Assembly (NCBI GenBank): GCA_022820025.1
Contig: JAJEGF010000030.1
Span: 62,001-126,000, forward strand
Direction: 5' to 3'
From: Chloroflexota bacterium
Lineage (GTDB): Bacteria > Chloroflexota > UBA11872
DNA: 64,000 bases
How positions within the stretch are numbered: the first letter of the stretch is position 1; the number at the start of each line of letters is the position of its first letter. The position numbers and the translations under genes are program-made. Of the stretch, positions 8,836 to 43,539 are shown one piece after another. The notes under the pieces are model-generated. The model searched no databases. It was not told where the DNA came from and saw only the letters and a list, made by a program, of their open reading frames with translations.

Positions 8836-9639
8836 ATGTTCGCCTTTGACATCTCAACTCGATTCGCAGGCTCCACCCTGCTCTTCCGGTCACTGTCGCT
8901 GGACGACGCGCTCGCGGCGCTGGCGCAAACCGAACTGACGTACGTGGATCTGTGGGCCACGCCGGGCGTGCTTGAGCACGTGAATCCCTTGAGCGATTCC
9001 GCGGATGAGGTGAGGGTTCGCGTGGAAGACCACGATCTCCGGCCCTCATCGATCTCGGCGTACGCCACGTTTGGAAGCGACCTGGTCGCACGGCTGGAGT
9101 TCGCGGCGGCCATTGGCGCCCCGTTGGTAATAGGGACCGCGCCGGTGCGCGAGTACGAACGGCGTGAGGCCGCCGACGACGTGCGGGCGCTGGGCCGCGC
9201 CGCGCAGGACCTGGGCGTGACCCTGGCGCTGGCCAACCAGGTTGGCACCTGGCTTGACGAGCCTTCCGAAATCGCCAGCTTCCTGGACGACGTGGGACAT
9301 CCACGCGTGCAACTGAGCCTCACCCCGCCGCACGCACGGTTGGCCAGTACCACGGTGCGCGCCGTAGCCGACGCCGCCGACGGCCGCGTGGGCCATACGT
9401 GTCTCTGGAGCGTCAGTCCCGCCATGCTCGACGCGGACAATCTGGGCCCTGCCGAGGACCAGGCGCCGGGCCACGGCACGGTCGATTTCCGCGCGCTGAC
9501 CTCCATGCTCGACGAGCGCAATTACTTCGGCATGTTCACGTTCATCTGGGGCAGCACGGAGAACGTGCCGCCCGAGCAGACCGTGGCCGCCATCGCCGCC
9601 GCCCGTGCTCACGTGCTCGACGTTTCCACCCCATCCTGA
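8836..9639 (+). CDS. Sugar phosphate isomerase/epimerase (TIM-barrel AP endonuclease 2 family)
   Basis: MFAFDISTRFAGSTLLFRSLSLDDALAALAQTELTYVDLWATPGVLEHV...; ATG at 8836 preferred over track start 8812 (TTG). Confidence 0.7.
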   Translation: MFAFDISTRFAGSTLLFRSLSLDDALAALAQTELTYVDLWATPGVLEHVNPLSDSADEVRVRVEDHDLRPSSISAYATFGSDLVARLEFAAAIGAPLVIGTAPVREYERREAADDVRALGRAAQDLGVTLALANQVGTWLDEPSEIASFLDDVGHPRVQLSLTPPHARLASTTVRAVADAADGRVGHTCLWSVSPAMLDADNLGPAEDQAPGHGTVDFRALTSMLDERNYFGMFTFIWGSTENVPPEQTVAAIAAARAHVLDVSTPS

Positions 9640-9720
9640 GTTCACCGGGTCGGCGCCGCGAACATGGGGTGCGTTTAGCCCTCGTGCTACGCTAGCCGCC
9701 GCCCACGAGATTGTGAAACG

Positions 9721-10803
9721 GTGCACAAAGCCCGGCAAAGCGTGACTCGCGCAGACAGGGACGAGACCCGTCCCATTCAAGGGCGTCGCAGTACACCATT
9801 GACTCGTAACCGCCGCATCTACGCCGCGCTCCTGGTTCCCGCCTTGGCCTTGGCCGTGGCCGCCTGTGGCGTCACCCCTCAGACCACGCTCGAACCCACC
9901 ACCGAAGCGGCCCGCACCGCGCGCGACCTGCTCATGTTCGTCTTCTGGGCCATGGTGGTCACCTTCGTGCTGGTGGAAGGCGCGCTGCTCTATTGCCTCA
10001 TCCGCTTCCGCCGCCGCAGCGGCGACGGTATCCCCGCCCAGACCCACGGCAACACCCCGCTTGAAATTGGCTGGACCATTGCACCGGCCATCCTGGTCGT
10101 GGTGATCGTCGTGCTCACTGTTCCGGCAATCTTCTCCAACGCACGCGCGGCCAGCCCGGACGCCCTGCAGGTTCGCGCCATCGGCCACCAGTGGTGGTTT
10201 GAGTTTCAGTACCCCGACATCGGGGTGGTGACCGCCAACGAATTGCACCTGCCCGTTGGCCGCGACGTGGAGATTCAGCTCGAAAGCAACGACGTGCTGC
10301 ACAGCTTCTGGGTCCCGAGCCTGCGCGGAAAGCTGGACATGGTGCCGGGCCGCGACAACAAGTTCACCATCAAGCCCGAAGTCACCGGCACCTTCCCCGG
10401 TCAGTGCGCCGAGTTCTGCGGAACGGCCCACGCGCTCATGAAGTTCTATGTGGTCGTGGAGACGCAGGCCGAATTCACCGCCTGGGCCGAGACCCAACGC
10501 GCCGAGCGCGTTCCACCCGCAAGTGACCTGGCCAGGCAAGGTGAAGAGACGCTGACCCTCGGCGGCTGCGTCGCGTGTCACACCATTCGCGGCACCGACT
10601 CGGCGGGCATCCTGGGTCCGGACCTGACCCACATCGGCGGCCGCCAGCACATCGCCGCCGGCCTCCTGGAGAACACGCCCGAGAACATGCGCGCTTGGTT
10701 GAGCGATCCGCAGGGCGTCAAGCCCGGCAACACCATGGTGATTCCCGAACTGACCACCGAGCAGCTTGACGCGCTGGTGGCCTACATGCAGGGCCTAAAA
10801 TAG
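9721..10803 (+). CDS. ctaC: Cytochrome c oxidase subunit II with C-terminal cytochrome c domain (caa3-type)
   Basis: 360 aa; signal/lipobox (AVAACG), two TMs, GHQWWFEFQYPD, VLHSFWVPSLRGKLDMVPG, CuA motif GQCAEFCGTAHALM, heme motif CVACH. Confidence 0.95.
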   Translation: MHKARQSVTRADRDETRPIQGRRSTPLTRNRRIYAALLVPALALAVAACGVTPQTTLEPTTEAARTARDLLMFVFWAMVVTFVLVEGALLYCLIRFRRRSGDGIPAQTHGNTPLEIGWTIAPAILVVVIVVLTVPAIFSNARAASPDALQVRAIGHQWWFEFQYPDIGVVTANELHLPVGRDVEIQLESNDVLHSFWVPSLRGKLDMVPGRDNKFTIKPEVTGTFPGQCAEFCGTAHALMKFYVVVETQAEFTAWAETQRAERVPPASDLARQGEETLTLGGCVACHTIRGTDSAGILGPDLTHIGGRQHIAAGLLENTPENMRAWLSDPQGVKPGNTMVIPELTTEQLDALVAYMQGLK

Positions 10804-10851
10804 GTATGCGCGCGCGACGCGGCCCACAGACGCCGCACGGAGGGTGACCGG

Positions 10852-12684
10852 ATGGCGACGGTAACGGCGACCGCCCCTGACACCCGTACGTTTGCCGGAA
10901 CGGCCTGGAGTTGGATCACCACGGTCGACCACAAGCGCATCGCCGTGCTCTACCTGGTCACCTCGCTCGCCTTCTTCATGCTCGGCGGGCTCGAAGCCCT
11001 GCTCATGCGCCTGCAGCTGGCCACGCCGGAGGCCGACGTCGTGTCGGCCGAGCGGTTCACCGAACTGTTCACCATGCACGGCACCACCATGGTGTTCCTG
11101 GCGCTCATGCCGCTCAGCGCGGCCTTCTTCAACCTGCTGGTGCCACTGATGATTGGCGCCCGCGATGTGGCCTTCCCGCGCCTGAACGCCCTCAGCTACT
11201 GGATTTACCTCTTCGGCGGCATCTTCATGAACATCAGCTTCGTCGCCGGCGGCGCGCCCAACGCCGGTTGGTTCGGCTACGCGCCGCTCACCGACACGGC
11301 CTTTGAAGCCACCCACGCCATCGACTTCTGGGCCTTCGGCCTCCAGATCCTGGGCGTCTCCTCGATCCTGGCCTCGATCAACTTCATCGTCACCATCATC
11401 AACATGCGTGCGCCGGGCATGACCCTGAACCGCATGCCCATGTTCGTCTGGATGAGCATGATCACGGCCTTCCTGATCATCTTCGCCTTCCCGGCCATCA
11501 CCATCGGCCTCGTCCTGTTGATCTTCGACCGCTACATAGAAACCAGCTTTTTCATTCCCGAAGGCGGCGGCGACCCCGTGCTCTGGCAGCACCTGTTCTG
11601 GGTCTTCGGTCACCCCGAGGTCTACATCCTCATCCTGCCGGCCATGGGCATCGTCTCCGAAATCCTGCCCACCTACTCGCGCAAGCCCCTATTCGGCTAC
11701 GCGGTCGTGGCCTACTCCGGAGCGGCCATCGCCCTGGTCGGCTTCGGCGTCTGGACGCACCACATGTTCACGGTCGGCCTGGGACCCATCGCCGACACCG
11801 CCTTCGCAATCTCCACCATGGCCATCGCCGTGCCCACTGGCGTCAAGATATTCAACTGGATCGCCACGCTTTACGGCGGCTCCATCAGCTTCAAATCGCC
11901 CATGTTGTTCGCCGTGGGCATGGTCTCCATGTTCATCATCGGCGGGCTCAGCGGCGTCATGCTCGGGTCGCCGCCCATCGACGCACAGGTGCAGGACACC
12001 TACTTCGTGGTCGCCCACCTGCACTACGTGCTGTTTGGCGGCACCGTGTTTGGCTTGTTCGGGGGCATCTACCACTGGTTCCCCAAGTTCACCGGCCGCT
12101 TCATGCACGACGGCTGGGGCAAGGTGCACTGGCTGCTGATGCTGATCGGATTCAACCTGACGTTCCTGCCTCAGCACATGCTCGGTATCGACGGCATGCC
12201 CCGCCGCGTGCACACCTACGCCGCCGACATGGGCTTCGACCTCTGGAACATGATGTCCACGGTCGGCTCCCTCATGATCGGGTTCTCGTTCCTGATCTTC
12301 ATCATCAACGCCCTGCGCTCCATCCGTCACGGCGAACCGTCCGGCAGCGATCCCTGGGACGGCGGCACCTTGGAGTGGACGATTCCCTCGCCGCCGCCCG
12401 TCTACAACTTCGCGCACATTCCGATCGTTGACAGCCGTTACCCCGCCTGGGACATCAAGCGCGGCGGCGGTCACACCGGCGCGGTGGCCACGGCTCCTGA
12501 GGCTGACGCCGAAGCCGACGAGCCGGACATCCACATGCCCAACCCCTCCTACTGGCCCATCGTCATGGCCGCCGGCATGGTGCTGGCCGCCTGTGGCCTG
12601 ATCTTCCACCAGGCATTCATCCTGCTGGGCGCGGTCCTCTTCGCCATTTCGCTGATCGGCTGGATCGAGGAACCCGCCGGATGA
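10852..12684 (+). CDS. ctaD: Cytochrome c oxidase subunit I
   Basis: 610 aa; TTVDHKRIAVLYLVTSL, MHGTTMVFL, WVFGHPEVYILILPAMGI, VWTHHMFTVG, DTYFVVAHLHYVLFGG. Confidence 0.97.
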   Translation: MATVTATAPDTRTFAGTAWSWITTVDHKRIAVLYLVTSLAFFMLGGLEALLMRLQLATPEADVVSAERFTELFTMHGTTMVFLALMPLSAAFFNLLVPLMIGARDVAFPRLNALSYWIYLFGGIFMNISFVAGGAPNAGWFGYAPLTDTAFEATHAIDFWAFGLQILGVSSILASINFIVTIINMRAPGMTLNRMPMFVWMSMITAFLIIFAFPAITIGLVLLIFDRYIETSFFIPEGGGDPVLWQHLFWVFGHPEVYILILPAMGIVSEILPTYSRKPLFGYAVVAYSGAAIALVGFGVWTHHMFTVGLGPIADTAFAISTMAIAVPTGVKIFNWIATLYGGSISFKSPMLFAVGMVSMFIIGGLSGVMLGSPPIDAQVQDTYFVVAHLHYVLFGGTVFGLFGGIYHWFPKFTGRFMHDGWGKVHWLLMLIGFNLTFLPQHMLGIDGMPRRVHTYAADMGFDLWNMMSTVGSLMIGFSFLIFIINALRSIRHGEPSGSDPWDGGTLEWTIPSPPPVYNFAHIPIVDSRYPAWDIKRGGGHTGAVATAPEADAEADEPDIHMPNPSYWPIVMAAGMVLAACGLIFHQAFILLGAVLFAISLIGWIEEPAG

Positions 12685-34636: not shown

Positions 34637-36235
34637 ATGGCAAGCGACAAGAACCTCGACGACCTCGGCCTTACCCACACCGGCGACATCCACTGGAACC
34701 TCAGCACCGCCGCGCTGTACGAGCACGCGGTGCGAAACGGCGAGGCCGAACTCAGCAACTACGGCCCGCTGATCGCCATGACGACCCCACACACCGGGCG
34801 CTCGCCCAGCGACAAGTGGGTCGTGCAGGACGACGGAAACAAGGACGAAGTGTGGTGGGGTCCCAACAACCAGCCGTTCGACGAGGCCAAGTTCGAGCCG
34901 CTGTTTGCCCGCGCCTGCGCCTTCGCGCAGGGCCGCGACCTGTACGTGCAGGACCTCTACGCCGGCGCCGACGCCCGGTACCGGCTGCCGGTGCGCTTCG
35001 TCACGGCGTATGCCTGGCACAGCTTGTTTGTCCGCAGCTTGTTCATTCATCCCACGGCCGAGGAACTGGAGAACCACGACCCGCAGTTCACGGTGGTGAA
35101 CCTTTCGCCGTTCCAGGCCGACCCGGCCGTGGACGGCACCGGCACCGAGACCTTCATCGTCGTCAACTTTGCCCGCAAGCTGGTCGTGATCGGCGGGACG
35201 CGCTACGCGGGCGAGAACAAGAAGTCCATCTTTACCGTCATGAACTACCTGTTGCCCCAGCAGGGCGTGCTGCCCATGCACTGCTCGGCCAACGTGGGAT
35301 CGGACGGCGAGACGGCCCTCTTTTTCGGCCTGTCGGGCACCGGCAAGACCACCCTCTCCATGGACCCCGACCGCCCGCTCATCGGCGACGACGAGCACGG
35401 CTGGAGCGACGTGGGCATCTTCAACTTCGAGGGCGGCTGTTACGCCAAGACCATCAAGCTCTCCGCCGAGAACGAGCCCGAAATCTACGCCACCACCCGC
35501 CAGTTCGGCACCGTGCTCGAAAACGTGCCGATGGACCCGGACACTCGCATGGTCGACCTCGACTCCGAGGAGATCACCGAGAACACCCGCGGCGCCTACC
35601 CGCTGACGCAGTTGACCAACGTGGTTCCCGACGGCCTCGGCCGCCACCCGCGCAACGTCGTGTTCCTGGCCGCCGACGCCTTTGGCGTGCTGCCGCCAAT
35701 CTCGCGCCTCACGCGCGATCAGGCCATGTACCACTTCCTGCTCGGCTACACCGCCCGCGTGGCCGGCACCGAGCGGGGCGTCACCGAGCCTGAGGCCACC
35801 TTCAGCGCCTGCTTCGGCGCCCCGTTCCTGCCGCGTCCGCCCAGCGTCTACGCCGAAATGCTCGGCGAGAAGCTGGACGAGCACGGCTCAACCGTCTGGC
35901 TGGTCAACACCGGCTGGACCGGCGGCCCGGCCGGCGAAAGCGACCGCATCTCGCTGCCCTACACCCGCGCCATCCTCGGCGCCGCCCTCTCCGGCGCGCT
36001 GGACGACGTGCCCTACGTCACCGACGAGATCTTCGGCCTCCAGGTCCCCACCGCCTGCCCCGGCGTCCCCGACGACGTGCTGAACGCCCGCGGCCAGTGG
36101 TCCGACCCGGCTCGCTACGACGCCCAGGCCACCGAACTCGCCGCCCTCATGCACAACGCCTTCAAACCCTTCGCCCCCGGCGTCTCCCAGGCAGTCCGCG
36201 ACGCCGCCCCCCTGGCGGCACGGCCAGCGGGGTAG
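34637..36235 (+). CDS. pckA: Phosphoenolpyruvate carboxykinase (ATP)
   Basis: 532 aa; GRSPSDKWVV, MHCSANVGSDGETALFFGLSGTGKTTLSMDPDRPLIGDDEHGWSDVGIFNFEGGCYAKTI. Confidence 0.97.
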   Translation: MASDKNLDDLGLTHTGDIHWNLSTAALYEHAVRNGEAELSNYGPLIAMTTPHTGRSPSDKWVVQDDGNKDEVWWGPNNQPFDEAKFEPLFARACAFAQGRDLYVQDLYAGADARYRLPVRFVTAYAWHSLFVRSLFIHPTAEELENHDPQFTVVNLSPFQADPAVDGTGTETFIVVNFARKLVVIGGTRYAGENKKSIFTVMNYLLPQQGVLPMHCSANVGSDGETALFFGLSGTGKTTLSMDPDRPLIGDDEHGWSDVGIFNFEGGCYAKTIKLSAENEPEIYATTRQFGTVLENVPMDPDTRMVDLDSEEITENTRGAYPLTQLTNVVPDGLGRHPRNVVFLAADAFGVLPPISRLTRDQAMYHFLLGYTARVAGTERGVTEPEATFSACFGAPFLPRPPSVYAEMLGEKLDEHGSTVWLVNTGWTGGPAGESDRISLPYTRAILGAALSGALDDVPYVTDEIFGLQVPTACPGVPDDVLNARGQWSDPARYDAQATELAALMHNAFKPFAPGVSQAVRDAAPLAARPAG

Positions 36236-36264
36236 CGAAGAGACCGCGTTCCGTCCCTGACGCT

Positions 36265-36298
36265 GCGACCCGGCACCGTAACTGCGGTGCCGGGTCGC
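36265..36298. terminator. Terminator hairpin downstream of pckA
   Basis: gcgacccggcaccg-taactg-cggtgccgggtcgc: perfect 14-bp stem, 6-nt loop. Confidence 0.7.
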
Positions 36299-36365
36299 GT
36301 AGGATTGTGTGGTTGAAGCGCTTGCCCGACCTGCACGGCTCTGGTAGCGACACGGCGGGATACCG

Positions 36366-37571
36366 ATGCTCACGCACGTAGAGATCGAGGGATTCAAGAG
36401 CTTCGGTTCGCCCTCGTCCCGTCTTGACTTCGGCCCTCTCAACCTTCTTGTCGGTCCTAACGCATCCGGCAAGTCAAATTTTTTGGCCGCCCTTGAGTTC
36501 CTCCAGACAGCGATCATCAGCGACGTCGAGACCGCAGTCAATGAGTTCGGCGGCATCTCCGAAATTTGGAACAAGCGTATTAGAGATTACGATCGTTCGT
36601 TTCCAATACACATTCGCATCCGCGACTCTGCACCTGAAATGCTTGAGCCGTATGGATTTCCAAAGCATCGGCTTACGTCGTACAACTACGATCTTTCACT
36701 CGCTTTACGATCCGAGCATGAGCCACCGGTAATTCAATCAGAGCGTATCTATGCGAGAATCAATAATATATCAGGGGAACGTTTCATTTATCAGATGAAT
36801 AGAAGTGGCTCGTCTGTGAGGGTCGAAGATGCACTTGCTTCACGTGGTTCTCAAACCCGGAATTTTGCAGTCTATCGCTTAGCATCCGGAAGATCGGTAG
36901 CTGGTCTAACTTTCGACTATATTCCCCTTATAGTGTGGTCTCGTATTCGAGAGTGGAAATTTTACCACATCGACGCTTCTATAGCCAGGCAAGCCTATCG
37001 CGAAAACCCTGAAGCAGACCTCGGTTGCTTCGGAGAAAACCTGGCAGTCGTAGTGAATCGGCTAAAGCAACAAGGCGACGGAAGGAAGTTCACGGCCATT
37101 GAGGAAGCACTGCGTGGGATGGTGCCTGGATTCGAACATGTGCTGCCGGTCTCCATAGGTGCAAAGCTAGGTTTTCAGATTGCGGAGAGTAACGTTAGAA
37201 GCAGATTCAATGCAGGGTCTGTGTCCGATGGAACTGTACGTCTTCTGGCATTGCTTACCATACTGCTATCGTCGAGGCAAGGTGACTTGATCGCTATCGA
37301 GGAGCCTGAGAATGGTCTTCACCCGCATATTACGCCGGATATTATAGAGTTACTTAGGATCTGTTCGAACGATGGTGGCCAGATTTTTGCGACGACACAT
37401 AATCCGGCTTTTCTTGATGAAGCGAAGCCGGAAGAGGTATTTCTTTGCGACAAGATGGATGGCTTCACGCAGGTCGTGCGTGCGTCATCGTTGCCCGACA
37501 TTCATGCCTTTGGCCGCTCGTTCTCTTTAGGTGAACTCTGGGAGCAGGGAGCCCTTGGGGGTATACCCTGA
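36366..37571 (+). CDS. AAA_21-type ABC/SMC-like ATPase (OLD/RecF-like), putative defence ATPase
   Basis: 401 aa; MLTHVEIEGFKSFGSPSSRLDFGPLNLLVGPNASGKSNFLAALEFLQ (Walker A), SDGTVRLLALLTIL (signature-like), LIAIEEPENGLHPHI (Walker B), IFATTHNPAFLDEA (switch His). Low GC relative to neighbours. Confidence 0.88.
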   Translation: MLTHVEIEGFKSFGSPSSRLDFGPLNLLVGPNASGKSNFLAALEFLQTAIISDVETAVNEFGGISEIWNKRIRDYDRSFPIHIRIRDSAPEMLEPYGFPKHRLTSYNYDLSLALRSEHEPPVIQSERIYARINNISGERFIYQMNRSGSSVRVEDALASRGSQTRNFAVYRLASGRSVAGLTFDYIPLIVWSRIREWKFYHIDASIARQAYRENPEADLGCFGENLAVVVNRLKQQGDGRKFTAIEEALRGMVPGFEHVLPVSIGAKLGFQIAESNVRSRFNAGSVSDGTVRLLALLTILLSSRQGDLIAIEEPENGLHPHITPDIIELLRICSNDGGQIFATTHNPAFLDEAKPEEVFLCDKMDGFTQVVRASSLPDIHAFGRSFSLGELWEQGALGGIP

Positions 37572-37579
37572 CAATCGGA

Positions 37580-38152
37580 GTGGGAGTCGAGGGTCCTTCC
37601 GATCGCGCCTTTTTTGAAAAGGTGCTGCATCGGGAGTTCCAAGGTATTCGGTTTGATATCCGTGCGATGAAGAATCGACCGAAGTTGCTTCGTAGAGCTC
37701 CAGACTTGGTTGATAGCTTTCGAAGTCTTCACTATCCACTTGCAATAATTGTAGTTGACCGAGATTCCGATCCTTGTGCTTCAGTAACGGTCCATGAGTT
37801 TGATGGAAATCTTGTGAGTGCGACCCGTATGGAGCTGTGCCAGCGAGATCTGTTCATTTGCGTGGCGGCTGTAGAGCTAGAGTCATGGTATCTGGCCGAT
37901 CAAGAAGCTATTCGACACGCCATACCCGGAGCCACTTATTCCGCGCCAGTGGAAACCAGTCATGTGGGGGCCGCATCTACTCTCCGCAGGCTATGGAGAG
38001 ACGCTGGAGGGTCAGGACAACCTAGAGGGACTAAACCCCAGCTTGCAAGATCTGTGGCGGAGCACTTTGATCCCGCGAGGGCGCGGCGGCACTCCGAGTC
38101 GTTTGCGTACTTCTGGGACCGAGTCACGGTCGCGATCAACAGATCGTCATGA
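37580..38152 (+). CDS. TOPRIM-like / DUF4276-like protein, partner of the AAA ATPase
   Basis: 190 aa from GTG (frame open upstream: ..LTIGVGVEGPSD..); VEGPSDRAFFEKVL then LAIIVVDRDSDPC (E...DxDxD), VAAVELESWYLADQEAIRHAIPGA. Starts 9 nt after the AAA stop, or overlaps it if an upstream start is used. Confidence 0.72.
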   Translation: MGVEGPSDRAFFEKVLHREFQGIRFDIRAMKNRPKLLRRAPDLVDSFRSLHYPLAIIVVDRDSDPCASVTVHEFDGNLVSATRMELCQRDLFICVAAVELESWYLADQEAIRHAIPGATYSAPVETSHVGAASTLRRLWRDAGGSGQPRGTKPQLARSVAEHFDPARARRHSESFAYFWDRVTVAINRSS

Positions 38153-38291: not shown

Positions 38292-39353
38292 ATGACCACC
38301 CAGTACCTCGCCTTCATCGGCACCTACACCACCGGCGACAGCGAAGGCATCTACACCTATCGGTTCGATTCGGGTACCGGCGCCCTGGAGCGTCTGAGCG
38401 TCGTTGGCGGCATTTCCAACCCGTCGTGGGTGGAGATCTCGCCGTCAGGCCGAAACCTCTACGCCGTCGGCGAGGAGACGCATGGCGTCATCAAGGCCTA
38501 CGCCATCGACCCCGCCACCGGCGCCCTGACCTACCTGAACGAGCAGCTCACCGGCGGCCGGGTCCCCTGCCACATCAGCGTCGACCCCACCGAGTCCTAC
38601 GCGCTGCTGGCCAACTACGGCAGCGGCAGCGTGGCCATGCTGCCGATCCAGGCGGACGGAAGCCTGGCCCCGCTGACTGGCTTCGTTCAGCACCAGGGCT
38701 CCAGCATCCACCCCCTGCGGCAGACCGGACCGCACGCCCACTCGATCATTCTTGACGCCGCGAACGGCCGCGCCTTCGCCCCCGATCTCGGCATCGACAA
38801 GCTGCTGGTCTACGACCTCGACCTGGACAGCGGCACGCTGGCGCCCCACGAAATCTCCTGGGTCCGCACCCCGGCCGGCGCCGGACCGCGGCACTTCGAT
38901 ATCCATCCCAACGGCCAATTCGCCTACCTGATCAACGAGCTGGCGTCCTCCATCACCGTCCTGCGCTACTACGCGGACCTTGGCGTGTTCGGCGAAATCG
39001 AGACCGTCAGCACCCTGCCCGACGACTTCGACGGCGAGACCACCTGCGCCGACATCCACGTCGCGCCCTCCGGCAAGTTCGTCTACGGCTCCAACCGCGG
39101 CCACGACAGCATCGCCATGTTCGCCATCGACCAGGCCACCGGCCGCCTCACCGGCCTTGGCCAGGAATCCACCCAGGGTCAGACCCCCCGCAACTTCGCC
39201 ATCGACCCCTCCGGCGCCTGGCTCCTCGCCGCCAACCAGGACACCAGCACCATCGTCACCTTCCGCATCCACCCCCAAACCGGCCACCTCCACTCCACCG
39301 GCCAGGTAACCAACATCCCCAACCCCGTCTGCATCAAACTCCTGCCGGTCTGA
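38292..39353 (+). CDS. Lactonase-family beta-propeller protein (6-phosphogluconolactonase-like)
   Basis: 353 aa; YLAFIGTYTTGDSEGIYTYRFD, GPHAHSIILDAANGRAFAPDLGIDKLLVYDLD, GPRHFDIHPNGQFAYLINELASSITVLRY, KFVYGSNRGHDSIAMFAID. Confidence 0.9.
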   Translation: MTTQYLAFIGTYTTGDSEGIYTYRFDSGTGALERLSVVGGISNPSWVEISPSGRNLYAVGEETHGVIKAYAIDPATGALTYLNEQLTGGRVPCHISVDPTESYALLANYGSGSVAMLPIQADGSLAPLTGFVQHQGSSIHPLRQTGPHAHSIILDAANGRAFAPDLGIDKLLVYDLDLDSGTLAPHEISWVRTPAGAGPRHFDIHPNGQFAYLINELASSITVLRYYADLGVFGEIETVSTLPDDFDGETTCADIHVAPSGKFVYGSNRGHDSIAMFAIDQATGRLTGLGQESTQGQTPRNFAIDPSGAWLLAANQDTSTIVTFRIHPQTGHLHSTGQVTNIPNPVCIKLLPV

Positions 39354-39539: not shown

Positions 39540-40403
39540 CTACGACCCACCAGCGAAGACCCGCATGAAACCGTCGATGAGCCCGAGGTTGAAGTCAAAG
39601 CTAAGGGCGATGGGCAAGGCATGCTCAATCGAAAAAGTGGCCAGCGGTCCCGATCCGCCGATTCCAAGGAATGAGTCACTTGAGAGGGCCGGATTGAGAG
39701 TCCATGGCGGCGAAGGAACGGCGAGCGAAATAGCTGTTGCCAGGACACCCAGGAACACCGCGACGGCGACGCCGGCGGCCAGTATTGCGCCAAGCGTTCG
39801 GCCATTGCTCAGGCCCAGCGATTCGCGAACGGCCAAATGGGTCCCGATCAGCACCCAACCGGCGATTAATGTCCGGAAGCCCGAGTCAAGCGACGGCGGA
39901 AGTTGCCAGGCCACAAAACCCCAGCGTGCAACATCGGTCGCAGGATCGGTAGCCAGGCCGATGATCGGTACGAAGGCGCGAACGAGGACCGGCGTGAGGA
40001 TGAGGAACAGGCCCGGCGCCTGTGCAAACGCAAGGCCGCGCGCGACCGACCCGAACCGTGGCGTCTGACAGTCGGCTGAGACCAGGCGCCCGCCAATGCT
40101 CCACAGCGCTGCAGCCCACACGGGCCAGGCTGCCAGGTGGACAGCGGTGTGCAGCGCGGCGATTGGCAGCGTTTCGTCCACAAACGTTTGCCACAGCAGG
40201 AGCTCGGTTCGACGTTCAAATGGCACGACTCTCAACATGGACAGCATGGTCCGGCCGCTTTCGCCAAGACCCACGCCAAGCGCCGCAAGCATCACCAGGA
40301 GCACCGCCTGCCGCGTGCTGGCGCCGGGGGCCGAAACCTCGCGGTAGAGGTCTGAATCCAGGCTCAGAGCGCGAATCGTTCCGCGAACTAAACCGCCGCC
40401 CAT
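39540..40403 (-). CDS. YIP1-family membrane protein, copy A
   Basis: MGGGLVRGTIRALSLDSDLYREVSAPGASTRQAVLLVMLAALGVGLG...; multiple TMs; ATG at 40403 preferred to track start 40478. Confidence 0.75.
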   Translation of the reverse strand: MGGGLVRGTIRALSLDSDLYREVSAPGASTRQAVLLVMLAALGVGLGESGRTMLSMLRVVPFERRTELLLWQTFVDETLPIAALHTAVHLAAWPVWAAALWSIGGRLVSADCQTPRFGSVARGLAFAQAPGLFLILTPVLVRAFVPIIGLATDPATDVARWGFVAWQLPPSLDSGFRTLIAGWVLIGTHLAVRESLGLSNGRTLGAILAAGVAVAVFLGVLATAISLAVPSPPWTLNPALSSDSFLGIGGSGPLATFSIEHALPIALSFDFNLGLIDGFMRVFAGGS

Positions 40404-40464
40404 TCGTGTCTGCGCGGTCGGCTCGGCTCGGTGCCCGGTGTCCCGCCCAGTGGGACGATCGGTG

Positions 40465-41256
40465 CTACCCACCGGCAAATGGGAAGAGGCGGAACAGGTA
40501 GCCCATCACCGCGCTGCCGAAGTCAAGGCCCAGATTGAAGTCAGACCCCGACGCAGCGTCAAAGCCCGAGGGAACCCCACGCCAATACGCGGTCGCGTAG
40601 TCGAGGTTCCCGGCGCGAGATACCGAGTTGACTGCGGCCCCCACCAGCACCGCGACGATGCCGGCTCCAATGCCGGCGCCGCACAAGGTGATCAGGGTGC
40701 GGCCGTTGCGTAGTCCCAACGCCTCTCGCGTGGCCAGAAAGGTCCCGATGAGGACCCAGACGGCCACCACGCTCCAAACACTGGAGGCCAGCAGCCCCAA
40801 CGGCGCTCTACCCACGCCGTCAGGGTCGACGCGTCCCAGCCAGAAGGCTCCGGCCAGAATCGGAATCAATACCAAGAGTGCGACGGGCGTCTGCGCGAAG
40901 GCCAGGACACGGGCCACAGGCCAGAATCCCGGCGCCCGGCCGTATCGGGCCACACGCCGGCCAATAGCCCAGACTCCGGCCGCCCACACCGGCCAGGCCA
41001 TTACCTGCGCAACGGCGCTAAACAGGACCATGACGCCTGCTTCGGCCATCGGCGAGTCCATTCCCACGAGCGCTGGTTCGTTCCGTTCAATGAAGTGGAA
41101 TGTCCTGGCGCCCCATGCAATGCCTGAAGCTGCGGAAGTGAGGACAACAATCAGTACAGCTTGATAGGAGCTGTTATCTGCGGTGGCGACTTCCCGGTAC
41201 AACGCCGGGTCCAGCCTCAGGGCCCGCAACAGCCTGTTGCCGAAGCCGTCCCCCAT
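40465..41256 (-). CDS. YIP1-family membrane protein, copy B
   Basis: MGDGFGNRLLRALRLDPALYREVATADNSSYQAVLIVVLTSAASGIAWG...; ATG at 41256 preferred because the track start (41367) lies inside a degenerate aminotransferase fragment. Confidence 0.75.
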   Translation of the reverse strand: MGDGFGNRLLRALRLDPALYREVATADNSSYQAVLIVVLTSAASGIAWGARTFHFIERNEPALVGMDSPMAEAGVMVLFSAVAQVMAWPVWAAGVWAIGRRVARYGRAPGFWPVARVLAFAQTPVALLVLIPILAGAFWLGRVDPDGVGRAPLGLLASSVWSVVAVWVLIGTFLATREALGLRNGRTLITLCGAGIGAGIVAVLVGAAVNSVSRAGNLDYATAYWRGVPSGFDAASGSDFNLGLDFGSAVMGYLFRLFPFAGG

Positions 41257-41321
41257 GGTCGCCTGCCTCGCTCCCGCGCCGACTCTGGCGGTCAGTCTGT
41301 CACGCGTCGCCGCCGAACGCT

Positions 41322-41400
41322 GCGTGGCTTCGCCAATCCTTCGGGCCCTGCTCAACGCTGTTGACACCGCCGTTTCGCTCCAGGCGTCGATCAGGCGGCC
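41322..41400 (-). pseudogene. Degenerate copy of the 3' end of the class-IV aminotransferase gene
   Basis: gtggcttcgccaatccttcgggccctgctcaacgctgttgacaccgccgtttcgctccaggcgtcgatcaggcgg aligns by eye with gtcgcttcgccgagcctccgggcctgctcaacgatgttcacgcccaccgtctcgctccacgcgtcaatcaggcgg (44203-44278), the end of gene 44195..45121. Confidence 0.75.
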
Positions 41401-41577
41401 ACGCCTGCCTCGCCATCTTCACCATCGCCTCCACCGGCGTCTGGCACCACGCCGCCAACCAGGACACCAGCACCATCGCCACCTTCCGCATCCACGCCCA
41501 AAACTGGCCACCTCCACCCCACCGGCCAGGTAGCCAACATCCCCAACCCCGACTGCAATGAGCTTCTGCAGGTCTGA
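41401..41577 (+). pseudogene. Degenerate, frameshifted copy of the 3' end of the lactonase gene
   Basis: gccgccaaccaggacaccagcaccatcgccaccttccgcatccacgcccaaaactggccacctccaccccaccggccaggtagccaacatccccaaccccgactgc...caggtctga matches 39229-39353 closely, with a +1 nt frameshift near caaaact; stop codon retained. Confidence 0.85.
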
Positions 41578-41775
41578 CTTGAGCTGCTGATTTGCCCTGA
41601 AGCGGGCGATGGCTCCCGGTTAAGCCCATAGCTCACGGAAAGCTGGTGCGTGTGACCTACCAGCGCGGACTCGGACGTCTAGACCCTGAGTCGCAGCCTA
41701 GGTGCCCTTGTTCGTCACTCCCAACGAAGGTCTGTCTCAGCTCACCGATGAAGGGTCACTTCCCGGGTTCAAGTA

Positions 41776-42648
41776 TCAAAATACCGCAATCCGAGCGAAG
41801 AGCCACGTTAGCGCTCGAATGAGGCCTAGATTGAAGTCAAAGCCACCTGAAATTGGGACTGCGGCGTCGAAGTAGATGGGATGTCCGGAAGTCTGGTAGA
41901 AGAAGCCGCTTGAGCCGAGAAAGTCCACGCTCTGGCCGGCCGATCCAACCGTTGGCGCCGTCGCGATCACGATCACGGTCACGATGCTGCCTAGCAAGCC
42001 AGCGATGGCCGCCCCGGCCATGAGTAGCGCGAACATGGTGCGAGCGTTGGTCAGGCCAAACGACTCGCGAACGGCGAGAAACGTCCCAATCAGCACCCAG
42101 ACGGATAGCAGCGCCTGCACGCCGAACACGAGCGATCTCCCGAGATGCAGGGACGCAGCAAGCGGACGAAGCAAACTGAAATCTGCAGGCAGCAAACGGA
42201 AGGCCACGAAGACGATAGGAAAAATGAGGGGAACCACCACAGCGAAGAAACCGTGTGCTTGTGCGAACGCGAGAGCCCGTGCAATCGCCCAAACTCCCGG
42301 CACCGGATTCTGTGCGAACACGTAGCGGGCAATTAACCAGAGTGCGACGGCCCACACGGGCCAGGCGGCGGCCTGCGCGGCCGCGCTGAGCCCTGCGGTT
42401 GGGATCCCGTACCTCCCATAGAACTCCCAAAAGAGCGCTAAATCATCATTCGCGCGGAAAGTCGCCCAGGGAGTCAGCACGACCCGCGCGCACGCGGCAG
42501 TCCCCACCCCGACGGCTGCCAACAGGACGACCAGCGTCGCCTGAAGCGTGATTCCGCCGGAAGCCGCTACTTCTCGATAGAGAGTCGGGTCCAGGCGCAA
42601 GGCTCGGCCTATCCTCTCGCGGAAGGCGGCAAACCAGATGGCACTCAT
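41776..42648 (-). CDS. YIP1-family membrane protein, copy C
   Basis: 290 aa; RALRLDPTLYREVAASGGITLQATLVVLLAAVGVGTAA plus TM helices. Confidence 0.75.
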   Translation of the reverse strand: MSAIWFAAFRERIGRALRLDPTLYREVAASGGITLQATLVVLLAAVGVGTAACARVVLTPWATFRANDDLALFWEFYGRYGIPTAGLSAAAQAAAWPVWAVALWLIARYVFAQNPVPGVWAIARALAFAQAHGFFAVVVPLIFPIVFVAFRLLPADFSLLRPLAASLHLGRSLVFGVQALLSVWVLIGTFLAVRESFGLTNARTMFALLMAGAAIAGLLGSIVTVIVIATAPTVGSAGQSVDFLGSSGFFYQTSGHPIYFDAAVPISGGFDFNLGLIRALTWLFARIAVF

Positions 42649-42708
42649 GGCAGCTGATCGCCCGGCGCCCGCCGTGTGGATACGCCGAGGGCGTCAGGGT
42701 CGTTGGCT

Positions 42709-43539
42709 CTAGAGGCGTGCATGGTCGACGAGCCGAATCAGATAGTTCACCACTGCGTCGCTGAAACTCAGGCCAAGATTGAAGTCCAAACCTCGCGATA
42801 CGTCGAACACGGAAGGGGACGCCAGCGAGTCGACCCAGGCCGCTCGTTGCGAACCGAATTCCCAGGTCACGATGATTCCGAGCAGCACCGAAAGGAGTCC
42901 AATGCCCGCGGCAACCGCGACCAGCGCGCCAAGTGTGCGGCCGTAACTCAGCCGAAGAGCTTCGTGCGTGGCCAGGAAGGTCCCCAGCAACACCCAGACT
43001 CCGACCACCGCCCGAACTGCGAATACCAGTAGGCCCAACGTCGATCCCTCGTCAACTCGAGGGTCTACTCGAGCCAGCCAGAAAGCCCCCGCCGCTATGG
43101 GAATCAGCACGGCGCAGAGTCCCGGCGCCTGCGCAAAGGCCAGCACGCGCGCAACCTGCCAGAAGCCCAGCGACCGACTCGGCGGCGCAAAGCGCCGTCC
43201 AAAGACCCACAGTCCAGCCGTCCAGACCGGCCAGGCGGCTACATGTGCGAACACACTAACGGCGGATACCGTACTTATCTCGGCCACGACCTGTTGCATC
43301 CATCGAACCGCGGGCTCACCCGTCACCAGCAGATGGAGAGCTCCGGCGCCCCACCCAACGCCCGCGATCCCTGCTGTGAGCACAACGACCAGGACCGCCT
43401 GCCAGGTGCTGGCGCCCGGCGCCGCCACCTCGCGGTACAGGCTGGGATCCAGCTGCAACGCGCGGCCGACCCGCCGAACCACGCCTCCCGGTGCTGCGAC
43501 TTGGCGATACAAGGCGCCGTCGATCAGGATGTCGTCCAC
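42709..43539 (-). CDS. YIP1-family membrane protein, copy D
   Basis: 276 aa; RALQLDPSLYREVAAPGASTWQAVLVVVLTAGIAGVGWGAG plus TM helices; extra N-terminal IDGALYRQVAAPGG. Confidence 0.75.
   Translation of the reverse strand: MDDILIDGALYRQVAAPGGVVRRVGRALQLDPSLYREVAAPGASTWQAVLVVVLTAGIAGVGWGAGALHLLVTGEPAVRWMQQVVAEISTVSAVSVFAHVAAWPVWTAGLWVFGRRFAPPSRSLGFWQVARVLAFAQAPGLCAVLIPIAAGAFWLARVDPRVDEGSTLGLLVFAVRAVVGVWVLLGTFLATHEALRLSYGRTLGALVAVAAGIGLLSVLLGIIVTWEFGSQRAAWVDSLASPSVFDVSRGLDFNLGLSFSDAVVNYLIRLVDHARL

Follow-up and report, generated by a model that had tools for sequence, protein, structure and literature searches.

A HEC-01-type ATPase–DUF4276 gene pair flanked by metabolic genes in an uncultured Chloroflexota bacterium

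Introduction

ABC ATPases of the OLD type, paired with nucleases, occur in BREX (PMC12839542), and in PARIS, which combines AriA (AAA_15) with AriB (DUF4435), AriB cuts tRNA-Lys once AriA has been triggered (PMC12409363, PMC12839542). OLD nucleases act on DNA (PMC12409363, PMC12796447). A further series of systems has been catalogued as Hma-embedded candidates, or HEC (Payne et al. 2024 preprint, as cited in PMC12988326 and PMC12111858). According to these two papers, HEC-04 and HEC-06 are antiviral, and phage interference was reported for HEC-04, or IbfA (PMC12111858), which resembles the locus described here in associating an ATPase with a TOPRIM domain and differs from it in being a single fused protein. 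As for HEC-01, no experiment or statement on its activity was found in the literature searched, a body of work outside which its source preprint lies (doi 10.1101/2024.01.29.577857), and a literature search for DUF4276, the family of its effector, returned no paper.

Here we describe a pair of genes in a 64,000-nucleotide stretch of Chloroflexota DNA (hereafter the window), for which the original prediction had proposed an ATPase-TOPRIM immune module analogous to PARIS.

Results

Two overlapping genes encode an OLD/SMC-type ATPase and a small effector

The upstream gene (Table 1) encodes a protein with a Walker A motif (GPNASGKSN), a signature motif (SDGTVRLL), a Walker B motif (IAIEEPENGLHP) and a switch region with its histidine (TTHNPAF), that is, every ATPase element that had been read from the sequence, and the key residues of these motifs are invariant or nearly so among relatives. 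The C-terminus of the ATPase is likewise conserved (FSLGELWEQGxLGG). The protein matches Pfam AAA_21 with an E-value of 7.3e-36, so these motifs are not chance occurrences. Its structural model (pLDDT 85) resembles SMC heads, the OLD nuclease 6p74 and PtuA of Septu and retrons, with E-values of 1e-10 to 1e-14.

When only standard start codons are allowed, the effector reading frame runs from a GTG at 37580 to 38152 and encodes 190 aa, a start that would cut into what is presumed to be the first TOPRIM strand. In the window and in two related genomes, G001 and G003, the ATPase stop codon overlaps with a CTG (CTGA), a GTG stands at the equivalent position (GTGA) in G034 and G037, and three more distant pairs have a GTGA or ATGA overlap. 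In the close relatives, the N-terminus is conserved downstream of this CTG or GTG as (L/V)(T/K/R)(I/V)GVGVEG, and with the CTG start residue 3 of the effector falls on position 3 of the HEC-01B profile, at a slight gain in score. Because relatives keep a CTG or GTG at this place and the HEC-01B alignment improves, the effector probably starts at the CTG and the two genes are probably coupled by a 4-nt overlap. The tight or overlapping coupling that had been anticipated is thus resolved as CTGA, and the anticipated length of about 190-200 aa fits both the CTG and the standard start.

Table 1. Coordinates of the gene pair and its surroundings in the window.
Feature	Position	Strand	Remarks
Left flank: ATP-type phosphoenolpyruvate carboxykinase (pckA), host gene	34637..36235	+	named from sequence
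Leader between pckA and ATPase	36236..36365	+	contains hairpin
HEC-01A-type ATPase, OLD/SMC-type ABC ATPase head (AAA_21)	36366..37571	+	401 aa; own TOPRIM domain absent
CTGA stop/start overlap joining both genes	37568..37571	+	4 nt
HEC-01B-type effector, DUF4276 with TOPRIM-like catalytic residues	37568..38152	+	194 aa; start probably CTG 37568
Right flank: 7-bladed beta-propeller lactonase, host gene	38292..39353	+	25 bp from pckA in seven same-genus genomes lacking the module here

The pair matches HEC-01, not PARIS

Comparison with PADLOC models, one of the checks that had been proposed, assigned both genes to the same system. The ATPase matches HEC-01A (PDLC04178) at 1.3e-54 over residues 2-397, and the 194-aa effector matches HEC-01B (PDLC04202) at 5e-17, with residues 3-189 of 194 on profile positions 3-200 of 204; the 190-aa version scores slightly lower (1.2e-16), and the top HEC-01B score is only 60 bits. 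The effector passes Pfam DUF4276 (4.7e-10, 40.5 bits, cut-off 30.2) and fails DUF4435 (E 0.07-0.11, 12.6-13.3 bits, cut-off 27), as the original prediction had suspected in calling the second gene DUF4276-like rather than DUF4435. The ATPase also matches AriA, at 4.8e-37, more weakly than HEC-01A. Since the HEC-01A, HEC-01B and DUF4276 profiles are all matched and DUF4435 stays far under its cut-off, the module is classed by these profiles as HEC-01, an already catalogued candidate system, and represents no new kind of system.

The window pair has the same two proteins as HEC-01 in the same order, both models being matched over nearly their full length. Relatives of the pair are embedded in defence operons, whereas the window copy is a divergent, chromosomal Chloroflexota member that stands alone between metabolic genes; no defence gene was found among the ten neighbours tested. 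With PARIS it shares the split between an OLD-type ATPase and a separate TOPRIM effector, and the logic of the two systems is probably analogous. PARIS itself was rejected: the effector is a DUF4276 protein of 190-194 aa, to be compared with the 238 positions of the DUF4435 profile, and AriA is not the best match of the ATPase. The original interpretation is supported in substance, the precise name being HEC-01. Class 1 and 2 OLD nucleases and Gabija GajA likewise combine an ATPase head with TOPRIM catalytic residues (hhalign E 9e-6), but ATPase and TOPRIM are fused in OLD classes 1-3 and in Gabija, whereas they form two reading frames with a 4-nt overlap in the window, and both assignments were rejected for this reason; in addition, the tested neighbours of the pair include no defence helicase. 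Finally, MADS Mad3 is related to the ATPase (5.8e-30) and Mad4 weakly to the effector (0.014). These scores lie far under the curated cut-offs (104.8 of 420 bits and 15.5 of 160 bits, respectively) and MADS was rejected on that account; moreover, no tested neighbour gene matches any defence model.

Profile comparison relates the effector, which carries a DxD motif, to TOPRIM nucleases

The relationship of the effector to TOPRIM domains was examined with three profiles, built from 22 effectors of the window type, 14 core DUF4276 proteins and 25 OLD-type TOPRIM domains of the same phylum. In hhalign comparisons, the effector profile matched the OLD TOPRIM profile with a probability of 83% (E 9e-6), the VEG glutamate and the DxD falling in register, which agrees with the E...DxDxD layout initially noticed. 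It matched core DUF4276 at 97.9% (E 5e-13), the match of core DUF4276 by itself to OLD TOPRIM was weaker (33%), and all controls (PEPCK, lactonase, ATPase and reversed profiles) stayed below 1%. Searches of PDB sequences with the effector, by phmmer and by profile, gave no match. AlphaFold2 modelled the 190-aa effector with a pLDDT of 75 and a weak core (below 50 at residues 61-69), and the top four Foldseek matches of this model were OLD C-terminal domains at E-values of 0.2-0.7, below significance, perhaps because only 8 sequences were usable and the 190-aa version misses the first four residues of strand 1. Of the predicted TOPRIM fold, the profile relationship thus stands and the fold model falls short of significance. 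Given the profile match and the aligned catalytic residues, the placement of this DUF4276-type effector with the TOPRIM nucleases is supported, not structurally proven. Elsewhere in the window's genome, a second OLD-type TOPRIM (C18:3807-3998) lies in an open frame of 736 aa, and this length suggests that it is probably fused to an ATPase.

The effector contains the motifs VEGPSD, VVDRDSDPC and VELESWYLAD, and an alignment of 8 relatives shows no variation at E4, D60, E101, W103 and L105 (190-aa numbering); the last three of these residues belong to the VELESWYLAD motif, whose apparent conservation had been remarked upon. In the clade of the window, these motifs read VEGPSD, VVDRDxDPC and ELESWYL, and their counterparts in core DUF4276 are VEGQTEE, TTMIDYY and HEFEALL(F). 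The second acid of the DxD (DxE in some members of the window clade) is thus a tyrosine in core DUF4276, an equivalence of the aspartate stretches that was read from the motifs, hhalign giving no clean alignment there. An effector clade that keeps a DxD where core DUF4276 has DxY is, to judge from these motifs, a new point.

Both genes travel together and recur in defence operons, on plasmids and on phage contigs

A survey of the phylum detected DUF4276 in 59 of 399 genomes, whereas 14 control genomes gave no match. At 28 of the 30 DUF4276 loci examined, the ATPase lies directly upstream, which amounts to all 28 loci with upstream sequence; at the other two, the contig ends 9-13 bases past the effector match. 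The distance matrices of ATPase and effector correlate (r 0.90, 20 pairs), none of 5000 permutations reaching as high a value. As far as loci and distances can tell, the two genes are co-conserved and co-diverging, and the co-conservation on which the original prediction had been staked beforehand held. One effector gene (G037:C261:7609-8166) contains an in-frame TAG, and this copy may therefore be decaying.

A single conserved housekeeping position of the homologs had been named as an argument against the prediction; the homologs lie instead in defence operons, plasmids and phages. In one locus (L110), BrxC/PglY and PglX enclose the HEC-01-like pair, BrxF lies upstream, and HEC-02A/HEC-02B (9549-11086) come directly after the pair and PglX within a single operon of the BREX type. 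A core pair follows WYL-domain and SNF2 genes and precedes a methyltransferase gene on an Aeromonas plasmid, and another lies between a methyltransferase gene and an Mrr gene on an Ideonella plasmid, both inside operons of the restriction-modification type; on a Piscirickettsia plasmid the core pair is alone. On three other viral contigs, the pair has DNA polymerase A, SSB or capsid genes in its vicinity. The plasmid copies were found only with the core DUF4276 query: a tblastn search of phage and plasmid records with the window effector gave no match, nor did a search of viral contigs with the effector alignment, and a scan of genome contigs retrieved four close relatives only. A match was present in 8 of 101 genomes, most close relatives being without the module.

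The pair occupies a variable site behind a conserved leader

Seven genomes of the same genus lack the module here and have 25 bp between pckA and the lactonase gene. The pair fills this gap in the window's genome (G000), G001 and G003, and in G010 the gap holds two membrane-protein genes of the type seen downstream in the window. The G+C content is about 0.5 across the pair and 0.64-0.73 in the flanking stretches. Between G000 and G003, the flanking genes are 95% and 93% identical in DNA, as against 58% for the ATPase gene and about 61% for the effector gene, so that the module alleles have diverged far beyond the genes around them. Trees of the flanking genes, which bear on the ancestral state of the empty site, are weakly supported and discordant. 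Insertion sites differ, since the module adjoins the lactonase gene in the window's genus and a miaA-like gene in G034 and G037. Taken together, these observations make the pckA-lactonase gap a variable site, which is a new point, and the pair is most likely a horizontally acquired, portable module.

The last 80 nt of the leader (36286-36365) are 99% identical in G003, though the ATPase gene behind them is only 58% identical, and a search of 23 other genomes did not find this segment. Such conservation may mark either a functional promoter region or a recombination boundary. The leader hairpin (about 36266-36297) has perfect, G+C-rich arms of 13 bp with no T-run behind, and the whole leader folds with a z-score of -3.5. 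A dispersed repeat was considered for the hairpin and rejected, as it is single copy in the genome.

Downstream of the lactonase gene, 39540-43539 of the minus strand encodes at least four divergent proteins with multiple membrane spans, an N-terminal ALRLDPxLYREV and a C-terminal FNLGL; one of them was tested against Pfam and gave no match. Interspersed with these genes, at about 41360-41574 of the plus strand, are fragments of the lactonase 3' end, and similar fragments are present in G004, G005, G006, G007 and G010, suggesting repeated segmental duplication around the lactonase gene.

Discussion

The window pair is most likely a two-gene anti-phage module of the HEC-01 type, in which the ATPase would sense infection and gate a metal-dependent TOPRIM nuclease. 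The ATPase, made together with the DUF4276/TOPRIM protein, would probably bind it and hold it inactive. On sensing a phage-derived trigger, the ATPase would change its nucleotide or assembly state and so free or activate the TOPRIM protein. The latter would then cut nucleic acid by metal catalysis, using the Glu of VEG and the Asp of DxD, with host tRNA or another RNA (as for AriB of PARIS) or DNA (as for OLD proteins) as the most plausible substrate, and this cleavage would stop the infection, presumably with an abortive outcome.

Overlapping genes, a small effector, a patchy distribution and carriage on plasmids are also what a selfish toxin-antitoxin pair might display, with a TOPRIM toxin held by the ATPase and persistence ensured by addiction rather than by phage defence, and Pfam indeed describes AAA_21 as a putative AbiEii toxin domain. 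Homologs inside BREX and restriction-modification operons are not what addiction by itself would lead one to expect, and we consider this explanation distinctly unlikely, bearing in mind that the toxin-antitoxin and defence readings are compatible with each other. The SMC and Rad50 heads among the best structural matches of the ATPase, together with Cran1, an archaeal OLD-family protein that functions in the cell cycle and seemingly not in defence (PMC12796447), evoke an SMC/Rad50-like pair with a TOPRIM-like partner, active in DNA repair or chromosome maintenance. Housekeeping genes show no such distribution, however: most close relatives are without the pair, its insertion loci differ, and it is carried by phages and plasmids, all of which renders such a role very improbable. 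It is barely conceivable that the module regulates the pckA-lactonase unit that it interrupts and has no connection with phages. Its place between two metabolic genes of the same strand and the strong conservation of the 80-nt leader in G003 would suit such a function, but homologs elsewhere have unrelated neighbours, and the seven relatives with the 25-bp spacing do without the module at this very site.

A broader proposal, which we regard as speculative and rather unlikely, would combine the two new points. HEC-01 would then hold at least two effector chemistries, the metal site of the DxD clade differing enough from that of core DUF4276 to act on a different substrate, and the pckA-lactonase gap would serve as a small hotspot of cargo exchange, with defence alleles being replaced behind a conserved leader that is retained.

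In conclusion, the window offers a clean, minimal copy of HEC-01 that stands alone, and the empty site in relatives is evidence of its gain or loss. DUF4276, a family without an assigned function in Pfam, can now be grouped with the TOPRIM nucleases by profile comparison, and this grouping opens a specific catalytic-mutant test of a little-studied defence effector.
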